The translations under genes and the position numbers were made by a program. From assembly GCA_944324905.1 (NCBI GenBank), contig CALUYB010000009.1, forward strand, positions 1 through 64,000: a stretch of 64,000 nt of DNA. Direction: 5' to 3'. The stretch comes from Candidatus Gastranaerophilales bacterium (lineage in GTDB: Bacteria > Cyanobacteriota > Vampirovibrionia > Gastranaerophilales > Gastranaerophilaceae). The first letter of the stretch is position 1, and the number at the start of each line of letters is the position of its first letter. Positions 1 through 46,771 of the stretch are shown here, piece after piece. The notes under the pieces are model-generated. The model saw nothing but the letters and a program-made list of their open reading frames with translations, searched no databases and was not told the origin of the DNA.

Positions 1-1296
1 AACAAAGGTGTTCAATTGCTTCTTGACTCAGTAGTTGAACTAATGCCTTCACCTGTTGACGTTAAGGCTATTGAAGGCGAACTTGAGGACGGTACAAAGG
101 TTGAGCGCCACTCATCAGATGAAGAACCTTTTGCAGCTCTTGCATTTAAAGTTATGACAGATCCTTACGTTGGTCGTTTAACATTTATGAGAGTCTACTC
201 AGGAAAATTAACTTCAGGTTCTTATGTTCTTAACGCTACAAACGGCAAAAAAGAACGTATTTCAAGACTTGTACAAATGCAAGCTGATCAAAGAAACGAA
301 ATTACTGAAGTATATGCAGGTGATATTTGCGCTGCAGTTGGTTTAAAAGATACAACAACAGGTGATACGCTTTGCGATGAAAAAGCACCTATCATCCTGG
401 AAAGAATGACTTTCCCGACACCTGTTATCTCGGTTGCAATTGAACCCAAAACAAAAGCAGACCAAGACAAAATGGGTATTGCATTACAAAAACTTGCAGA
501 AGAAGACCCATCTTTCCAAGTTAAAACAGATAATGAAACAGGTCAAACAATCATCTCCGGTATGGGCGAACTTCACCTTGACATCATTGTTGACCGTTTA
601 ATGAGAGAATTTAAAGTTGACGCTAACGTTGGTAAACCTCAAGTTGCTTATCGTGAAACAATCAGAGGTACTGCTGATCAAGACTCTAAATTCATCCGTC
701 AATCAGGTGGTCGTGGTCAATACGGACACGTTAAAGTTAAAATCGAACCCGCTGAAGAAAATGCAGGATTTGTATTTGAAAATAAAATCGTCGGTGGTGC
801 TATTCCTAAAGAATACATTGAACCGGCAAGAAAAGGTATGGAAGAAGCTCTTGAAGGCGGTATTATTGCAGGTTTCCCTGTAATCGACGTAAAAGTTACT
901 CTATACGATGGTACATATCACGATGTTGACTCATCAGAAATGGCATTTAAAATCGCAGGTTCTATGGCAATGAAAGACGGTATCAAAAAAGCTCGTCCTT
1001 GTATTCTTGAACCTATGATGAAAGTTGAAATCGAAGTTCCTGAAGAAAATACAGGTGATATAATAGGTGATATTTCATCTCGTAGAGGTCGTGTAGAAGG
1101 TATGGAAATGATTGAAGGAACAGGTATTCAAAAAGTACGTGCAATCGTTCCTCTGGCTGAAATGTTCGGATACGCTACAGACATCCGTTCAAAAACTCAA
1201 GGCCGCGGTACTTTCTCAATGGAATTCTGCAAATACGAACAAGTTCCTGCTAACATTGAAACTGAAATTATTTCTAAATCAGGCGCAAACGCTTAG
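1..1296 (+). CDS. fusA: Elongation factor G, C-terminal part (5' end outside window)
   Basis: This is the C-terminal 431 residues of the ribosomal translocase EF-G, a GTPase that moves tRNA and mRNA through the ribosome after peptide transfer. The reading frame is open from base 1, so the GTPase domain lies upstream. Visible parts are the end of the G-domain region, the beta-barrel domain II ([10 protein letters not shown] follows it), domain III ([14 protein letters not shown]), domain IV ([13 protein letters not shown]) and domain V ([26 protein letters not shown]). All are typical of bacterial EF-G, and the C-terminus has the usual length. Full-length homologues have about 690 residues. 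It is followed at once by a strong terminator, so it is probably the last gene of its operon. Confidence 0.97.
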
Positions 1297-1317
1297 GTTT
1301 TACAAATAATATCTTAA

Positions 1318-1347
1318 TAAATGAGGGTTTAAAAAACCCTCATTTTT
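1318..1347 (+). terminator. Intrinsic terminator of fusA
   Basis: An inverted repeat (ATGAGGGTTT / AAAACCCTCAT) separated by two bases is followed by a run of five T, about 22 bp after the fusA stop codon. Confidence 0.9.
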
Positions 1348-1417
1348 AATAGCAAATTTTTATTTTTTTGGTTGTTATAGAATTATCACCATGACAAAAA
1401 TACGGAAAGGAAACAAA

Positions 1418-9798: not shown

Positions 9799-10263
9799 AT
9801 GGAAAAAATTAACACCACACGTTTTGGAGAAATTGAAGTAGATAACAGTTTATTGTTCAATTTTGTATCGCCAATTATAGGTTACAACGATAAAAAGCGA
9901 TTTGCGCTTGTTGATTACAGACCTGATTCACCGTTTAAATGGCTACAGTCTATGGAGGATATGGATTTAGCATTTCCTGTAACACTTTGCAGCTATTTTA
10001 ATATTGATTATCAGTTTGAACTAAGTGATGAGGACGCGCAGAAATTAGACATTAAGGAAGCAAGTGAAATCCTTGCGCTAAATATTGTAACAATTCCGCA
10101 AATAAATCCTCAAGGTGCTACGATAAACCTTCTTGCGCCTATCATTGTTAACACAACAAACAACAATGCTATGCAAGTTATTTTAAAAGATACAAAATTT
10201 CCTGTTAGACATCCTCTTTTTGATAAAAAAGAGGAAAAAAAGCCTGATGAGGGTGCAAAATAA
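9799..10263 (+). CDS. fliW: Flagellar assembly factor FliW (CsrA antagonist)
   Basis: FliW binds cytoplasmic flagellin and, when flagellin has been exported, binds CsrA instead and relieves translational repression of flagellin. The 154-residue length and the family motifs fit: TTRFGEIEVD at the start, LFNFVSPIIGYNDKKRFALVDY, PFKWLQSMEDMDLAFPV, and NLLAPIIVNTTNNNAMQV. The C-terminus is a charged tail (FDKKEEKKPDEGAK). The stop overlaps csrA by one base (TAATG), the usual fliW-csrA coupling. The two flagellin genes are less than 1 kb downstream on the opposite strand. Confidence 0.95.
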   Translation: MEKINTTRFGEIEVDNSLLFNFVSPIIGYNDKKRFALVDYRPDSPFKWLQSMEDMDLAFPVTLCSYFNIDYQFELSDEDAQKLDIKEASEILALNIVTIPQINPQGATINLLAPIIVNTTNNNAMQVILKDTKFPVRHPLFDKKEEKKPDEGAK

Positions 10264-10526
10264 TGCTTATATTAACAAGAAAACTAAATCAAAAGCTAAT
10301 TATAAATGACAATATTGAAGTAATCATTCTTGAAACTTATAAAAACGCTGTTAAAATAGGTATAAAAGCGCCAAATAATGTACAAGTATTTCGTGAAGAA
10401 ATTTATCGCGAAATCAAAAAAGCAAATGAAATGTCAAAAGTTGCTGACATTAAAGCACTTGATAGTATTAATGCGCCAAAGGCACAAGGTTTTAACCTTG
10501 CAGACAAACTAAAACACAAAAACTAA
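10263..10526 (+). CDS. csrA: Translational regulator CsrA
   Basis: CsrA is a dimeric RNA-binding protein that represses translation by covering GGA motifs in mRNA leaders. The 87-residue product starts with the canonical MLILTRKLNQKLIINDNIEV and continues VKIGIKAPNNVQVFREEIYREI, which carries the conserved RNA-contact residues (Leu4/Arg6 region, and the VxVxREEIY strand). Its roughly 25-residue C-terminal extension after the core is longer than the short forms of enteric bacteria. It is translationally coupled to fliW. Both flagellin leaders in this window contain two GGA motifs, so flagellin is the likely target. Confidence 0.95.
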   Translation: MLILTRKLNQKLIINDNIEVIILETYKNAVKIGIKAPNNVQVFREEIYREIKKANEMSKVADIKALDSINAPKAQGFNLADKLKHKN

Positions 10527-10527
10527 A

Positions 10528-11133
10528 ATGCAGCAAAAGGCAAAAGAGTTATTTTATAATGGGGATTACAATCAGGCACTAAAGATTTTTAGTGCTGAAA
10601 ATTTTAATTACGAAGCAGGTTTATGCGCACTTTTATTGGGTGATGAAAAAAGCGCAAAAGACTTTTGGACAAAAGACAAAGACCCTGACATTGCAACAAA
10701 ATGGGGACTTATTATTTTAAATGTTATTCATCTTAAAATAAAAGAGCGTCCTACTTTTTTCCAAGTGAGAGCTTTTCTTGAGGTTTATTTAAGCCTTTTT
10801 ATTCAAACTAAACATCTAAATTGGGCAGAAAATGTCATAAGTGCTTGCGATATTTTTGCAAGGGCAAATCCTGAAACATACAAATTTATAGCACGAGCTT
10901 TATTTGCAAACGGGTATATGGAACTTTCCCACAAATTTTTAAATGAATCAAAAAAATTATTCTACGCCGACCCTGAAGCTCACTTTATCGATTCTCAAGC
11001 ATATTTTATTGAGGGTAAATACAAAGAATCACTTGATAGTATAAATGAAACCCTAAAAAGCGCAGGCGAGTATTACCCTGCTATTGAATTCAAGAAAATA
11101 ATAGAACAAAAAATAAACCCCCAAGCAAAATAG
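10528..11133 (+). CDS. TPR-like protein, last gene of the fliW-csrA unit
   Basis: This 201-residue cytoplasmic protein is not assigned to a named family. It is helical, with TPR-like pairs (AKELFYNGDYNQALKIF at the N-terminus; FIARALFANGYMELSHKFLNES and AYFIEGKYKESLDSINETL near the C-terminus). There is no signal peptide. It begins one base after the csrA stop codon, without a visible ribosome site, so its translation probably depends on csrA. The context suggests a flagellar chaperone-like or adaptor role, but that is inference only. Its 3' end overlaps the hairpin that ends the convergent flagellin gene. Confidence 0.75.
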   Translation: MQQKAKELFYNGDYNQALKIFSAENFNYEAGLCALLLGDEKSAKDFWTKDKDPDIATKWGLIILNVIHLKIKERPTFFQVRAFLEVYLSLFIQTKHLNWAENVISACDIFARANPETYKFIARALFANGYMELSHKFLNESKKLFYADPEAHFIDSQAYFIEGKYKESLDSINETLKSAGEYYPAIEFKKIIEQKINPQAK

Positions 11134-11142
11134 CAAGGGGGT
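11105..11142 (-). terminator. Terminator of the downstream flagellin gene
   Basis: On the minus strand the stem ACCCCC...GGGGGT (with an inner GC pair) is followed by TTTATTTTTT, 25 bp after the flagellin stop. It overlaps the end of the convergent TPR-like gene. Confidence 0.65.
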
Positions 11143-11167
11143 AGAAAATATTTTACAATTGTCTTTA

Positions 11168-12028
11168 TTATATTAATGACAATGCAATGTTTGGTTGTTG
11201 GTTTGCTTGAACCAATAGAGAAGCTGATGCTTGTTGCAGAATTTGGTTTTGAATGTAGTTAGATGATTCTGTAGCAATGTCAGCATCCGTAATACGTGAA
11301 TTAGCAGCTGATAAGTTTTCATACTGAGTATCTAGCTGTTCAATTGCTGAATTTAACCTGTTAGAAACAGAACCAATTGTACCACGTCTTGTTGAAATTT
11401 CCGTAATAGCTTCATCTAATTGATCTAATTGGTCTTGCATAGCAGACAAGTCAGTACCAACAAAAGCTGAAGTAAATGCAGCTTGACCTGTTAAAGTTGA
11501 TACATGGGCATCGTTAAATACATTTGAAATTTCAATTGTATTTGTAGAACCTTCTGAACCGGTACCTATTTGCAGAGTAACCTTTTCGTCAGCACTATCG
11601 TGAGTTTCGCCACCAAACAAGTCAAATGTGTTGTACTTAGCACCTGTTGCAATTCTGTCAATTTCAGCTAAACGTGCTTGTGCTTCTTCTTGCATAGCTT
11701 GTAACTGTTCGTCTGTTTGACCACCGTTCATAGCTTGCAAAGTTAAGTCACGAATACGCATAAAGTTGTCTTGCATAACTGCAAGGTTACCTTCTGCTGT
11801 TTGCAACAAGTTAATACCCGATTGAGCATTGTCTTTTGCAACCGATGTACCACGGGTTTGAACTTCAATACCTTTTGAAATTACAAGACCTGCAGCGTCA
11901 TCTGCAGCAGAGTTAATTTTTGAACCCGTTGTCATTCTCTCCATAGCGGTGTTCATTGCATCAGTAACCCTATTCAAGTTGTTTTGTACTTGAATTGATT
12001 GAACGTTTGTGTTAACCACAATAGCCAT
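11168..12028 (-). CDS. Flagellin (second copy of the tandem pair)
   Basis: This is the filament subunit of the bacterial flagellum. At 286 residues it is a short flagellin: the conserved D0/D1 helices at both ends (MAIVVNTNVQSIQVQNNLNR, MTTGSKINSAADDAAGLVIS; C-terminal ESSNYIQNQILQQASASLLV, ending QQPNIALSLI) flank a short variable centre at about residues 130-190. AAAGGAGAT precedes the ATG. The first 95 or so codons are identical at DNA level to the neighbouring flagellin, as are the last 35 or so. A terminator separates the two genes, so this copy needs its own promoter; no convincing sigma-28 site was found. The leader has two GGA motifs. Confidence 0.96.
   Translation of the reverse strand: MAIVVNTNVQSIQVQNNLNRVTDAMNTAMERMTTGSKINSAADDAAGLVISKGIEVQTRGTSVAKDNAQSGINLLQTAEGNLAVMQDNFMRIRDLTLQAMNGGQTDEQLQAMQEEAQARLAEIDRIATGAKYNTFDLFGGETHDSADEKVTLQIGTGSEGSTNTIEISNVFNDAHVSTLTGQAAFTSAFVGTDLSAMQDQLDQLDEAITEISTRRGTIGSVSNRLNSAIEQLDTQYENLSAANSRITDADIATESSNYIQNQILQQASASLLVQANQQPNIALSLI
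11727..12013 (-). repeat. 287-bp block identical to the other flagellin gene (copy A)
   Basis: This block is base-for-base identical to 12807-13093, including all synonymous sites. It covers codons from about 6 to 101 of the flagellin. A second identical block of about 110 bp lies at the 3' ends (11178-11287 against 12237-12346). The centres differ. Confidence 0.92.
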
Positions 12029-12035
12029 AATCTGA

Positions 12036-12066
12036 ATCTCCTTTCGATTGACTAAATACTTCCTTG
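12036..12066 (-). promoter_or_regulatory. Flagellin leader with two GGA motifs (candidate CsrA sites)
   Basis: On the mRNA, CAAGGAAG is followed 22 nt later by the ribosome site AAAGGAGAT. Two GGA motifs, one of them overlapping the ribosome site, is the arrangement at CsrA-repressed flagellin leaders. The same pair occurs before the other flagellin gene. Confidence 0.55.
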
Positions 12067-12150
12067 TGTATACTTTAGTTATTCACGCTAAGCGCAAATT
12101 ACTAACAAGATTTGCCGTTTTTTTTACAAAACTTAAAGTTTTTTGAGATA

Positions 12151-12187
12151 CAAAAAGCCCTTAAACCGGCGTGGTAAAGGGCTTTTG
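12151..12187 (-). terminator. Terminator of the upstream flagellin gene
   Basis: On the minus strand the stem AAAAGCCCTT / AAGGGCTTTTT encloses a 14-base loop and ends in a T-run, about 40 bp after the stop codon at 12227. It separates the two flagellin transcription units. Confidence 0.87.
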
Positions 12188-12226
12188 CTTGATGTGTATA
12201 ATTAACAATTATTAATAATATGTTAA

Positions 12227-13108
12227 TTATATGAGAGACAATGCAATGTTTGGTTGTTGGTTTGCTTGAACCAATAGAGAAGCTGATGCTTGTTGCAGAA
12301 TTTGGTTTTGAATGTAGTTAGATGATTCTGTAGCAATGTCAGCATCTTTAATACGTGAATTAGAAGCTGATAAGTTTTCATACTGAGTATCAAGCTGATC
12401 CATTGCAGATTCTAACCTGTTTGTTGTAGAACCAATTGTACCACGTCTTGTTGAAATTTCTGTAATAGCTTCATCCAGCGCATCTAATTGATCTTGCATA
12501 GCAGTTAAACCATCAGCAGCAGTTGCGTATCCTGCAAATTTAGATGTAAATGCACCTGTGCCTGTTAGGGTTGAAACATGAGCATCATCAAATACATCCG
12601 AAATTGTAATAGTATCTACATCAGAGTTTGAGCCAGTACCAATTTGAAGTGTAACTTGAGTGTCAGCACCTGATTTAGTACGGTCTGAACCGCCAAACAA
12701 ATCAAATGTATTGAATTTTGCGCCTGTTGCAATTCTATCAATTTCAGCCAAACGTGCTTGTGCTTCTTCTTGCATAGCTAAAAGTTGATCATCAGTTTGA
12801 CCGCCATTCATAGCTTGCAAAGTTAAGTCACGAATACGCATAAAGTTGTCTTGCATAACTGCAAGGTTACCTTCTGCTGTTTGCAACAAGTTAATACCCG
12901 ATTGAGCATTGTCTTTTGCAACCGATGTACCACGGGTTTGAACTTCAATACCTTTTGAAATTACAAGACCTGCAGCGTCATCTGCAGCAGAGTTAATTTT
13001 TGAACCCGTTGTCATTCTCTCCATAGCGGTGTTCATTGCATCAGTAACCCTATTCAAGTTGTTTTGTACTTGAATTGATTGAACGTTTGTGTTTACTACG
13101 ATTGCCAT
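12227..13108 (-). CDS. Flagellin (first copy of the tandem pair)
   Basis: This 293-residue flagellin has the same N- and C-terminal D0/D1 helices as its neighbour and a different centre (TKSGADTQVTLQIGTGSNSD, TGAFTSKFAGYATAADGL), seven residues longer. AAGGAG lies 10 bp upstream of the ATG. The leader has two GGA motifs, CAAGGAAG and the ribosome site, 19 nt apart. About 300 bp of non-coding DNA upstream holds a perfect 8-bp hairpin and three CCTTTGaCA-like boxes. Two near-identical flagellins with separate terminators suggest either a mixed filament or independent expression. Confidence 0.96.
   Translation of the reverse strand: MAIVVNTNVQSIQVQNNLNRVTDAMNTAMERMTTGSKINSAADDAAGLVISKGIEVQTRGTSVAKDNAQSGINLLQTAEGNLAVMQDNFMRIRDLTLQAMNGGQTDDQLLAMQEEAQARLAEIDRIATGAKFNTFDLFGGSDRTKSGADTQVTLQIGTGSNSDVDTITISDVFDDAHVSTLTGTGAFTSKFAGYATAADGLTAMQDQLDALDEAITEISTRRGTIGSTTNRLESAMDQLDTQYENLSASNSRIKDADIATESSNYIQNQILQQASASLLVQANQQPNIALSLI
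12807..13093 (-). repeat. 287-bp block identical to the other flagellin gene (copy B)
   Basis: Partner of the block at 11727-12013. The offset between the copies is exactly 1080 bp over this block. Confidence 0.92.
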
Positions 13109-13117
13109 AGTTGTAAA

Positions 13118-13145
13118 TCTCCTTATTTTATGTTTACTTCCTTGT
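13118..13145 (-). promoter_or_regulatory. Flagellin leader with two GGA motifs (candidate CsrA sites)
   Basis: On the mRNA, AACAAGGAAG is followed by AAGGAGAT, the ribosome site, with the two GGA motifs 19 nt apart. The arrangement matches the other flagellin leader, and csrA and fliW are 3 kb away. Confidence 0.55.
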
Positions 13146-13216
13146 TTTTGGCATTAAAACCTTTGTCAGAACCGCATTTAAAATGAAGTTTTAACAAAAC
13201 TGATAACTATTCCTAT

Positions 13217-45121: not shown

Positions 45122-46054
45122 TTATTTTTTCTCTCTTAAATTAAACTGAACATCTTCAAGCAATTTTCGATTTATTGCAAGTAAATCAGAAATAACAGCT
45201 AAAAGTCCGCAATGGAAAGCAAGTATAAGTAAAATTGCACACAATATTAAGGATTGAATATGCCCTTGTCCATCGCCCGTTAAATAAAAATACAAAAATC
45301 TAAAACCTAGAAAAGCTCCTAAAAAGAGCATTAGCGCGCCAATAAAAGCAAAAAATCTAAAAGGGCGATATATTATAAAAATTCTAAGCATTGTAAGAAT
45401 CGAGCGCATAATGTAGCTCAAATTATTTTTCACAAGGCGAGATGGGCGCAAATCTTCATTAACTCTAATTGGCACACAAACAATATTTAAACCTTTTCTT
45501 TGAGCTTGAATTATTGTTTCCAGGGTGTATGTGTAATTATCAAATACATTAATTCTTTTTGCAGCATAAGACGAAAACGCCCTAAAGCCGCTTGGCGCAT
45601 CGTCAACATTTGCACCTGAAACTTTTTTCATAACAAAAGAACCGAGCTTTTGAAGCATTTTCTTTGTTGGCGAAAAGTGCCTTATGCTATCAATTGGACG
45701 CGTGCCAATAGTAATATCTGCCTTCTTATTTAAAATCGGTTCAATTAATTTTTCAACATCATCCGCACAATACTGATTATCCGCATCTAAATTAACAATG
45801 ATATCAGCTTTCATATCAAGCGCTGTATTTAAACCAGAACAAAATGCACGCGCTAAACCCAAATTTCTTTTATGGGAAATTACCTTTTTAACACCCCAAC
45901 CTGTTGCAATTTCAACTGTTTTATCACTTGAACCATCATCAATAATCAAAACCTCAATTTTATCAATCCCTAAAATCTTTTTAGGCAGAGCGTTCAATGT
46001 TGTTAAAATTGTATCTTGCTCATTAAAACAAGGTATTTGAATAACAAGTTTCAT
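45122..46054 (-). CDS. Family 2 glycosyltransferase, polyprenol-phosphate type
   Basis: This 310-residue protein has a GT2 catalytic domain (about 1-220) with IPCFNEQDTI, IIDDGSSDKT, HKRNLGLARAF, NLDADNQYCADD (the DxD metal site) and DAPSGFRAFS. Two membrane helices follow near the C-terminus (FFAFIGALMLFLGAFLGF, LILCAILLILAFHCGLL). This is the DPM1/GtrB layout, so it probably charges undecaprenyl or dolichyl phosphate with a sugar; the sugar is unknown. Single gene; the ATG abuts the 348-bp gap that holds the sigma-28 signal. Confidence 0.9.
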   Translation of the reverse strand: MKLVIQIPCFNEQDTILTTLNALPKKILGIDKIEVLIIDDGSSDKTVEIATGWGVKKVISHKRNLGLARAFCSGLNTALDMKADIIVNLDADNQYCADDVEKLIEPILNKKADITIGTRPIDSIRHFSPTKKMLQKLGSFVMKKVSGANVDDAPSGFRAFSSYAAKRINVFDNYTYTLETIIQAQRKGLNIVCVPIRVNEDLRPSRLVKNNLSYIMRSILTMLRIFIIYRPFRFFAFIGALMLFLGAFLGFRFLYFYLTGDGQGHIQSLILCAILLILAFHCGLLAVISDLLAINRKLLEDVQFNLREKK

Positions 46055-46097
46055 AAAATTATTCTACATCAAATAGAGGATTTTTGATACAAAAAAA

Positions 46098-46124
46098 TAA
46101 AGCGTGGAAATCACTTGCCGATAA
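46098..46124 (+). promoter_or_regulatory. Perfect sigma-28 (FliA) promoter consensus
   Basis: TAAA, 15 bp, GCCGATAA matches the flagellar sigma-28 promoter consensus at every position, including spacing. The predicted start site is about 46131. There is no gene before the terminator at 46189-46222, so the transcript would be short and non-coding. Confidence 0.75.
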
Positions 46125-46130
46125 ACAAAA

Positions 46131-46222
46131 TGTAAGAGAGAAAAACATACTAAATACACCATATATTAACTTTATTGTCATCCTTGTTAAGCCATTGTTT
46201 TTATAAACTTGGCTTTTTTTTA
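46131..46222 (+). ncRNA. Putative sigma-28-dependent small RNA, about 90 nt
   Basis: Between the sigma-28 promoter and the terminator hairpin there is no usable reading frame: the only ATG, at 46130, is followed at once by TAA. The first 55 or so bases look unstructured and A-rich. ATCCTTGTTAAG, just before the terminator stem, has 8 nt complementary to the leader of the flagellin gene at 12227-13108. No known RNA family is recognised. The rest of the 348-bp gap (46223-46402) is AT-rich and holds only the promoter of the next gene. Confidence 0.5.
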
Positions 46223-46223
46223 T
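46189..46223 (+). terminator. Intrinsic terminator with no upstream gene
   Basis: The outer stem AAGCCA / TGGCTT and inner stem GTTT / AAAC around TTAT are followed by six or seven further T. The nearest gene on this strand upstream is gap, which has its own terminator more than 1 kb away. Confidence 0.75.
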
Positions 46224-46360
46224 TAAGAAATATTAAGACAAAATATATATCCATAAGACTATTGATTTTATTGTGTTTTAGGTGTATTTAAAATATAAAA
46301 TAATAAAAAAGTATATAAAATTTAAATATCACTAGCAAAAAATATTTTTTTCATGTTTTA

Positions 46361-46366
46361 TATAAT
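46361..46366 (+). promoter_or_regulatory. Candidate -10 box of the 122-residue gene
   Basis: TATAAT lies 36 bp upstream of the ATG at 46403, without a clear -35 box. AAGGAG is the ribosome site. Confidence 0.4.
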
Positions 46367-46402
46367 AGAATCCAAAAACACGAATTATCTTAAGGAGAAT
46401 AA

Positions 46403-46771
46403 ATGAATAATAATATAGGCAACAACTTAAACCCAAACCCCTTAGGGTTTAACACTCAAGGTCATAAGTCTAACTCAGCTGATGAGTATTGTGAAGCAAA
46501 AGAAGGTTGCGAAGAAATTATAGAAGATAAAGACCCTCTAAAATATGTCCCAGGGGATAGTTATGGCAGAGCTATGGTCAATAAAATTCAGCATGGTAAT
46601 AATCAACAAACAGACCCTGCTGATATTGAGGATGACCTTTTTACTTTTGAACTTATTTCAGGCTTTGCCAAAGACTTAGCTCAAGGCTATATCGAAAAAG
46701 GTGTAGACCCTCAAAAAGCTTACAAAATGGCAGCAATAACAACAGACGTTCTTTTAAATATGGAACAATAA
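46403..46771 (+). CDS. Small acidic protein of unknown function, 122 residues
   Basis: No family is recognised. The N-terminal third is Asn-rich and polar (MNNNIGNNLNPNPLGFNTQ) and probably disordered. A Lys/Glu-rich centre and a helical C-terminus (ELISGFAKDLAQGYIEKGVDPQKAYKMAAITTDVLL) follow. There is no signal peptide or membrane segment. Its disordered Asn-rich start resembles that of the 129-residue protein at 1418-1807. Position downstream of the sigma-28 signal may matter if termination at 46189-46222 is incomplete. Confidence 0.72.
   Translation: MNNNIGNNLNPNPLGFNTQGHKSNSADEYCEAKEGCEEIIEDKDPLKYVPGDSYGRAMVNKIQHGNNQQTDPADIEDDLFTFELISGFAKDLAQGYIEKGVDPQKAYKMAAITTDVLLNMEQ

Follow-up and report, generated by a model that had tools for sequence, protein, structure and literature searches.

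The 64,000-nt stretch of the Candidatus Gastranaerophilales genome analysed here (the window) comes from a non-photosynthetic cyanobacterial relative living in the gut and contains a 348-bp gap between two genes, and the question is whether this gap encodes an RNA and, if so, what controls it. A first-pass annotation had read into it an exact FliA (sigma-28) promoter driving a putative non-coding small RNA of about 90 nt, and we find the gap and both flanking reading frames as it described them. The gap holds a conserved, RNA-like body that ends in a covarying terminator and lies behind a promoter pattern common to flagellin genes, a fliJ-like gene and a second small RNA, in a genome that encodes FliA. 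We consider it likely that this element, here called type B, is a FliA-dependent, trans-acting non-coding small RNA that pairs near ribosome-binding sites.

The promoter is present letter for letter, with TAAA (46098-46101) and GCCGATAA (46117-46124) separated by 15 bp. Besides this exact form (46098-46124) the window has no other TAAA-N14-16-GCCGATAA, against an expectation of 0.04 in shuffled sequence. Across the 1.66-Mb genome the related pattern TAAA-N14-16-GCCGATAW occurs five times, versus three for the reversed control, and at that scale the motif taken by itself is weak evidence. The RNA start was placed about 7 nt after the -10 element. The hairpin with a long T-run that had been reported downstream is AAGCCA...TGGCTT followed by eight T's (-8.9 kcal/mol, z -3.7); it is the only clear structure, the RNA as a whole folding no better than shuffles (z -0.5). 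As had been claimed, no notable reading frame opens beyond the predicted RNA start (Table 1).

Table 1. Features of the type B locus, its candidate targets and the companion RNA (window positions unless a contig or locus is named)
Feature	Position	Strand	Remark
Intergenic gap	46055-46402		348 bp; site of predicted type B small RNA
Family-2 glycosyltransferase gene, divergent	45122..46054	-	PF00535, 2e-25; syntenic neighbour of type B RNA
Upstream box ATCAAATAGAGGAT, dyad-like	46068..46081	+	Candidate activator site common to type A
-35 element TAAAG	46098..46102	+	Sigma-28-like promoter
-10 element GCCGATAA	46117..46124	+	Sigma-28-like promoter
Predicted small RNA (type B), ~91 nt	46131..46221	+	Conserved body; covariance-model homologs in other genera
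Conserved core (ACACCATATATTAACTTTATTGTCATCCTTGTT)	46157..46188	+	Nearly invariant in genus; presumed base-pairing region
Anti-Shine-Dalgarno-like seed UCAUCCUUGUU	46178..46188	+	Invariant in genus; complement AACAAGGAUGA
Intrinsic terminator	46189..46221	+	Stem 46189-46194 / 46210-46215; T-run 46214-46221
122-aa ORF, family unassigned	46403..46771	+	3' of type B RNA and separate from it; own conserved AT-rich upstream region
fliW	9799..10263	+	PF02623, 2.1e-36
csrA	10263..10526	+	PF02599, 4.3e-21
ACAAGGA in leader of next flagellin (start 12028)	12061..12067	-	In nearly all leaders of that flagellin fetched
AACAAGGA in flagellin leader (start 13108)	13139..13146	-	Candidate type B target and CsrA-like site
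Type A RNA in the window's own genome	G000:C1:213799-213822	-	Also L136, ~1264-1385 (-)

Rfam 15 covariance models gave no match in the window at gathering score, and with a relaxed threshold the gap yielded two matches only, with E of 1 and 2.1. A CsrA sponge of the CsrB/RsmY type, with multiple GGA in hairpin loops, was considered and rejected, there being no GGA in 46131-46221. The 122-aa ORF downstream had no match in a Pfam search. Before it, the AT-rich stretch ACTAGCAAAAAATATTTTTTTCATGTTTTATATAAT (30-40 bp, at 46330-46370) has short matches at many places in genomes of the order, and is perhaps a common form of housekeeping promoter.

The genus, going by related records, is Candidatus Galligastranaerophilus, and exact 23-mers of the type B RNA were found in GTDB genomes only under the names Candidatus Gastranaerophilales, Candidatus Galligastranaerophilus intestinavium and uncultured bacterium. 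The region is present in 13 of the 14 other genus genomes, with one copy split across two contigs; the exception (G001) is 83% complete. Expressed as mean pairwise identity over 13 genomes, conservation reaches 0.967 in the RNA body (46143-46189, 43 of 47 columns invariant) and 0.976 in the terminator, against 0.771 in adjacent coding sequence and 0.765 in downstream DNA. The -35 element (0.929) and the upstream box region (0.854) follow, and the -10 element (0.705), the +1 region (0.641) and the promoter spacer (0.623) vary more. Given that the nearly invariant body and terminator (~46143-46225) lie between variable flanks, the conserved block has the limits of a transcript, starting shortly past the predicted RNA start and ending at the T-run. 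The first-pass annotation had staked its reading on conservation in close relatives, and the reading passed that test: 13/14 genus genomes have body and terminator almost unchanged, and most relatives have TAAAG and YCGA at fixed spacing. Its description of an exact consensus holds for the window species; in the relatives the YCGA core alone is kept. Thirteen genus orthologs have TAAA (11/13) or TCAA (2/13) at -35 and CGA throughout at -10, the exact 8-mer GCCGATAA being confined to the window species, and the -10 core of the genus is YCGA/T, unlike the textbook octamer.

A covariance model built from the type B RNA detected a further ten loci in the family, spread over genera g44, g51 and g48 (E 5e-6 to 7e-3 per genome). 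Type B occurs, by this criterion, in at least two further genera and probably in three. The same glycosyltransferase gene adjoins it in nine of the ten loci, and four other genera examined carry that gene without the element. The unpaired core CUUUAUUGUCAUCCUURUUA is retained across genera, and the terminator stem is altered by compensatory pairs. CTTTATTGTCATCCTTRTTA is likewise retained in these loci, except in L272 (g48), the weakest match to the model, which has no recognisable promoter and a poor core upstream of TTTATTGTCATCCTTG. Within the core there is a short deletion in ATATATTAAC, of 3 nt in most. In g44 the core has G>A (CCTTG>CCTTA), the stem is rewritten (e.g., GCCTATTGTATA...TATACAATAGC), and the promoters have ACGA or ACGT at the expected CCGAT position. 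A covarying stem, which the first-pass annotation had proposed to seek in related genomes, is thus found in the terminator in other genera. In the model-fitted alignment, which leans to structure, 97% of terminator-pair cells are paired, seven of nine pairs are changed on both sides, and both-side changed cells number 27 versus 8.6 in shuffles (0/500 shuffles as high; slid controls near zero).

The gap also gave weak matches in other families of the order, and these proved to be a different RNA on the same plan, here called type A. Its layout comprises the box, a promoter TTAAAGTTTT-N-GCCGATA, a 5' hairpin, unpaired ACCUCCUCCCCAAGUCURGUA and a terminator. The ultraconserved stretch is ACCUCCUCCCCAAGUCURGUAGCCG (motif ACCUCCUCCCCAAGUC). 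Of 386 genomes sampled from the phylum, 135 contain the exact 24-mer, each in a single copy; all 135 belong to this order, and the sampled genomes outside it lack the 24-mer. Type A is present in 14/15 genus genomes, with further loci at L095, L094, L105, L106-L135 and L169-L213; most genomes have one copy, and families f2 and f3 have tandem pairs. Folding of the 40 nt that precede the seed gives a mean z of -4.0, and the 5' hairpin was judged by this energy z-score, since a plain hairpin count is uninformative (73% of shuffles fold one). Among 60 sequences there are 28 different stem pairs in that hairpin. RNAalifold on an automatic alignment missed it, an alignment effect, and single-sequence folds show it. 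Rfam gave no match at the three type A loci scanned. At least two small RNAs of this kind are therefore predicted in the group, with unrelated cores, type A order-wide and type B in a few genera.

Both RNAs are preceded by a dyad-like element close to ATCAAAYRGAKGAT in sequence. In the window it stands 22 bp from the -35 element of type B (GAGGAT to TAAAG), and it is conserved in the genus alignment, as it is at most of the g44 and g51 type B loci. Of 60 regions upstream of type A, 40 contain NGA[GTC]GA, versus 4.2 in shuffled sequence. The distance from GAnGA to TAAAG in type A is 11 (19 cases), 21 (7), 22 (12) or 26 (1), and that from box to TAAAG in type B is 22 in 12/13 genus sequences, under a selection rule that favoured 11 and 22; this distance is also visible in the sequences themselves. 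Given that such spacings equal one or two helical turns, they fit an activator bound to a single face of the DNA; a helically phased box common to both RNAs points to a further regulator. No such box was seen upstream of the fliJ-like or flagellin promoters.

A two-box matrix trained on 57 type A promoters from other genera, with the window and genus sequences left out, ranked the site at 46098 first of ~128,000 window positions. Nine of the 13 other genus orthologs match the level of the window's top ten; the weak-box orthologs rank 56-90 (G003, G009, G014) and 615 (G007). In this genus the same matrix, without training on them, also recovers the promoters of flagellin and of the fliJ-like gene. 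The flagellin promoter reads TAAAG-N14-TTCGNNNA, ~30 bp before ATG. One of the five genome-wide TAAA-N14-16-GCCGATAW sites lies 31 bp upstream of the start codon of a gene that we take, from our reading of its protein, to be FliJ-like, and this promoter is kept in the genus. In both, the -10 varies as it does in type B, away from exact GCCGATAA. The promoter pattern supports sigma-28 as the probable factor, short of proof. The window's genome encodes five flagellin-type proteins and a FliA of 243 bits (cut-off 189.6), and a FliA-type sigma factor exceeds the curated cut-off in 188/192 genomes of the order (182/182 good ones). Because FliA is universal in the order, its presence or absence is uninformative on dependence. 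The reading of type B as a sigma-28 RNA is strengthened by a second small RNA that agrees with it in layout, upstream box and kind of promoter, and weakened by the weak boxes in G003, G009, G014 and G007, the -10 drift in g44 and the promoterless L272.

From these patterns we infer that type B is transcribed and FliA-dependent, that a regulator acts at the box, and that the RNA works by pairing with targets. FliA RNA polymerase would start type B from TAAAG-N14-GCCGATAA, probably aided by the regulator at the ATCAAAYRGAKGAT box. Transcription would end at the RNA's own intrinsic terminator, giving a stand-alone product of ~90 nt (46131-46221 +). Its unpaired UUUAUUGUCAUCCUUGUUA core may then pair in trans with ribosome-binding-site regions of mRNAs, which would make type B a post-transcriptional arm of the motility programme. 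In single-sequence folds the mean unpaired probability of the core is 0.64-0.74, and that of the seed UCAUCCUUGUU is 0.32-0.78 in orthologs. The core contains CAUCCUUGUU, complementary to the Shine-Dalgarno-like AACAAGGAUG, and we suspect on this ground that type B pairs near ribosome-binding sites.

Flagellin leaders are candidate targets, as a lead only. The window carries fliW, csrA and then two tandem flagellin genes (9799-13146), with no clear sigma-28 promoter seen upstream of these two. Pairing of 7-9 bp between type B and flagellin leaders is possible; AACAAGGA at 13139..13146 offers 8 bp of complementarity to the seed, and genus leaders of the same flagellin have ACAAGGAAGT at this place. 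Both window leaders carry ACAAGGAAGU ~30 nt ahead of the start codon, with hardly any change across the genus. The motif resembles a CsrA site, and CsrA by itself may account for its conservation. Near ATG, AACAAGGA showed no clear enrichment in three genomes (43, 49 and 42 matches versus 38, 25 and 37 in controls), and RNAduplex of type B against flagellin leaders gave long duplexes of low specificity. With the CCUUA seed of g44, direct pairing would call for a matching AAUAAGGA or some other restored pairing in flagellin leaders, and the stretches around its type B RNA hold no flagellin gene. A more ambitious proposal, that types A and B together make up an RNA regulon dependent on FliA and governed by a shared activator on one helical face, and that type B pairs with the CsrA-type ACAAGGAAGU, competing with or replacing CsrA-FliW control of flagellin, seems to us doubtful.

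Type B could also be a real RNA transcribed by another sigma factor, housekeeping or of a divergent group, with the box as the true control and the sigma-28 look partly coincidental. The -10 is degenerate in several relatives and in g44, the exact consensus is near chance level genome-wide, and the box is conserved at least as well as the -10. However, TAAAG and YCGA recur at fixed spacing at flagellin, fliJ-like and type A promoters, the type B site ranks first in the window by the matrix, and no conserved TATAAT-like box was seen at the right place, so that we think this explanation unlikely. The lucky coincidence of a promoter match and a hairpin in an AT-rich spacer is scarcely credible: the consensus is not rare genome-wide, but conservation and covariation in several genera contradict chance.

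The remaining alternatives concern the minus strand and coding. The glycosyltransferase gene is syntenic at nearly every locus of the other genera, and a TTAACA-N16-TAATAT match lies on the minus strand (46190-46163); these could indicate a promoter or leader of that divergent gene, or an RNA acting only in cis on it. This is quite improbable, as the terminator with its T-run, the covariation and the promoter are all plus-strand and directed away from the gene, an invariant spacer is unexpected for a promoter, and four other genera have the same gene without the element. A short peptide, from the minus-strand 40-codon ORF (46059-46181) or a short plus-strand ORF, is very improbable. That minus-strand frame is open in the window species but truncated or frameshifted in most relatives, which contradicts a peptide gene, conservation extends to all codon positions, and neither strand of the type B RNA shows reading-frame conservation among relatives.

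The FliA-dependent small RNA that we favour would belong to a known class: Campylobacter has stand-alone representatives (PMC4626219, PMC11187230), and those of E. coli derive from UTRs (PMC10578931). In Campylobacter, CjNC1 / CjNC4 (CJnc10 / CJnc170, FlmR) are a pair of stand-alone RNAs per genome, made from sigma-28 promoters and each with a terminator; the 5' UTRs of flagellar mRNAs are their predicted pairing partners (PMC4626219, PMC11187230). Types A and B are similarly predicted to be stand-alone and two per genome, with a sigma-28-like promoter and own terminator, but the Campylobacter paralogs are identical in 37/44 nt, whereas types A and B differ in core and share the upstream box; the comparison, with an unrelated phylum, is by description. 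UhpU, MotR, FliX and FlgO of E. coli show FliA-controlled expression (PMC10578931) and are UTR-derived, some processed, and Hfq-bound, unlike the intergenic type B with its own promoter and terminator. CJnc230 (FlmE) of Campylobacter carries an anti-Shine-Dalgarno CCUU in a single-stranded stretch (PMC11187230), comparable to CAUCCUUGUU of type B, but is RpoN-dependent and linked to flgE. In cyanobacterial Yfr1, two stem-loops flank an unpaired, ultraconserved CUCC-rich stretch (PMC2190773). Type A, from a related lineage, has a similar layout; Yfr1 is 54-69 nt with ACUCCUCACAC, whereas type A carries ACCUCCUCCCCAAGUC behind a sigma-28-like promoter. The arrangement of ACUCCUCACAC between two stem-loops is absent from the type B RNA and the type A consensus, and type B has neither that motif nor a clear 5' hairpin.

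Within the searches made, the type A and type B families and their shared box seem undescribed. A literature search for Gastranaerophilales small RNAs and regulatory RNAs of gut Melainabacteria found no paper, and the earlier statement that none is known in this group stands within that search and the Rfam scans. To our knowledge, nearly all that is known of gut Melainabacteria comes from metagenomes, and types A and B offer concrete probes for metatranscriptomes. If they are FliA-driven, stand-alone sigma-28 small RNAs extend to a phylum far from Campylobacter and E. coli, and two RNA families with flagellar-type promoters would suggest repeated origin of such wiring.

Two further sites were met along the way. 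An exact TAAA-N15-GCCGATAA in the window's genome (G000:C14:28791-28817; L013 near 1500) lies just upstream of an uncharacterised gene (MSTDGIGKSYDEFLQ...), which is likely a further member of the sigma-28 regulon, judging by its promoter. At ~1011-1180 of L154 (G176, C16), TTAAAGTTTT-N-GCCGATA precedes a CCTCCTTTTCCCC stretch, and the terminator there is GGAACC..GGTTCC; this is an apparent further sigma-28-driven RNA, neither type A nor type B.
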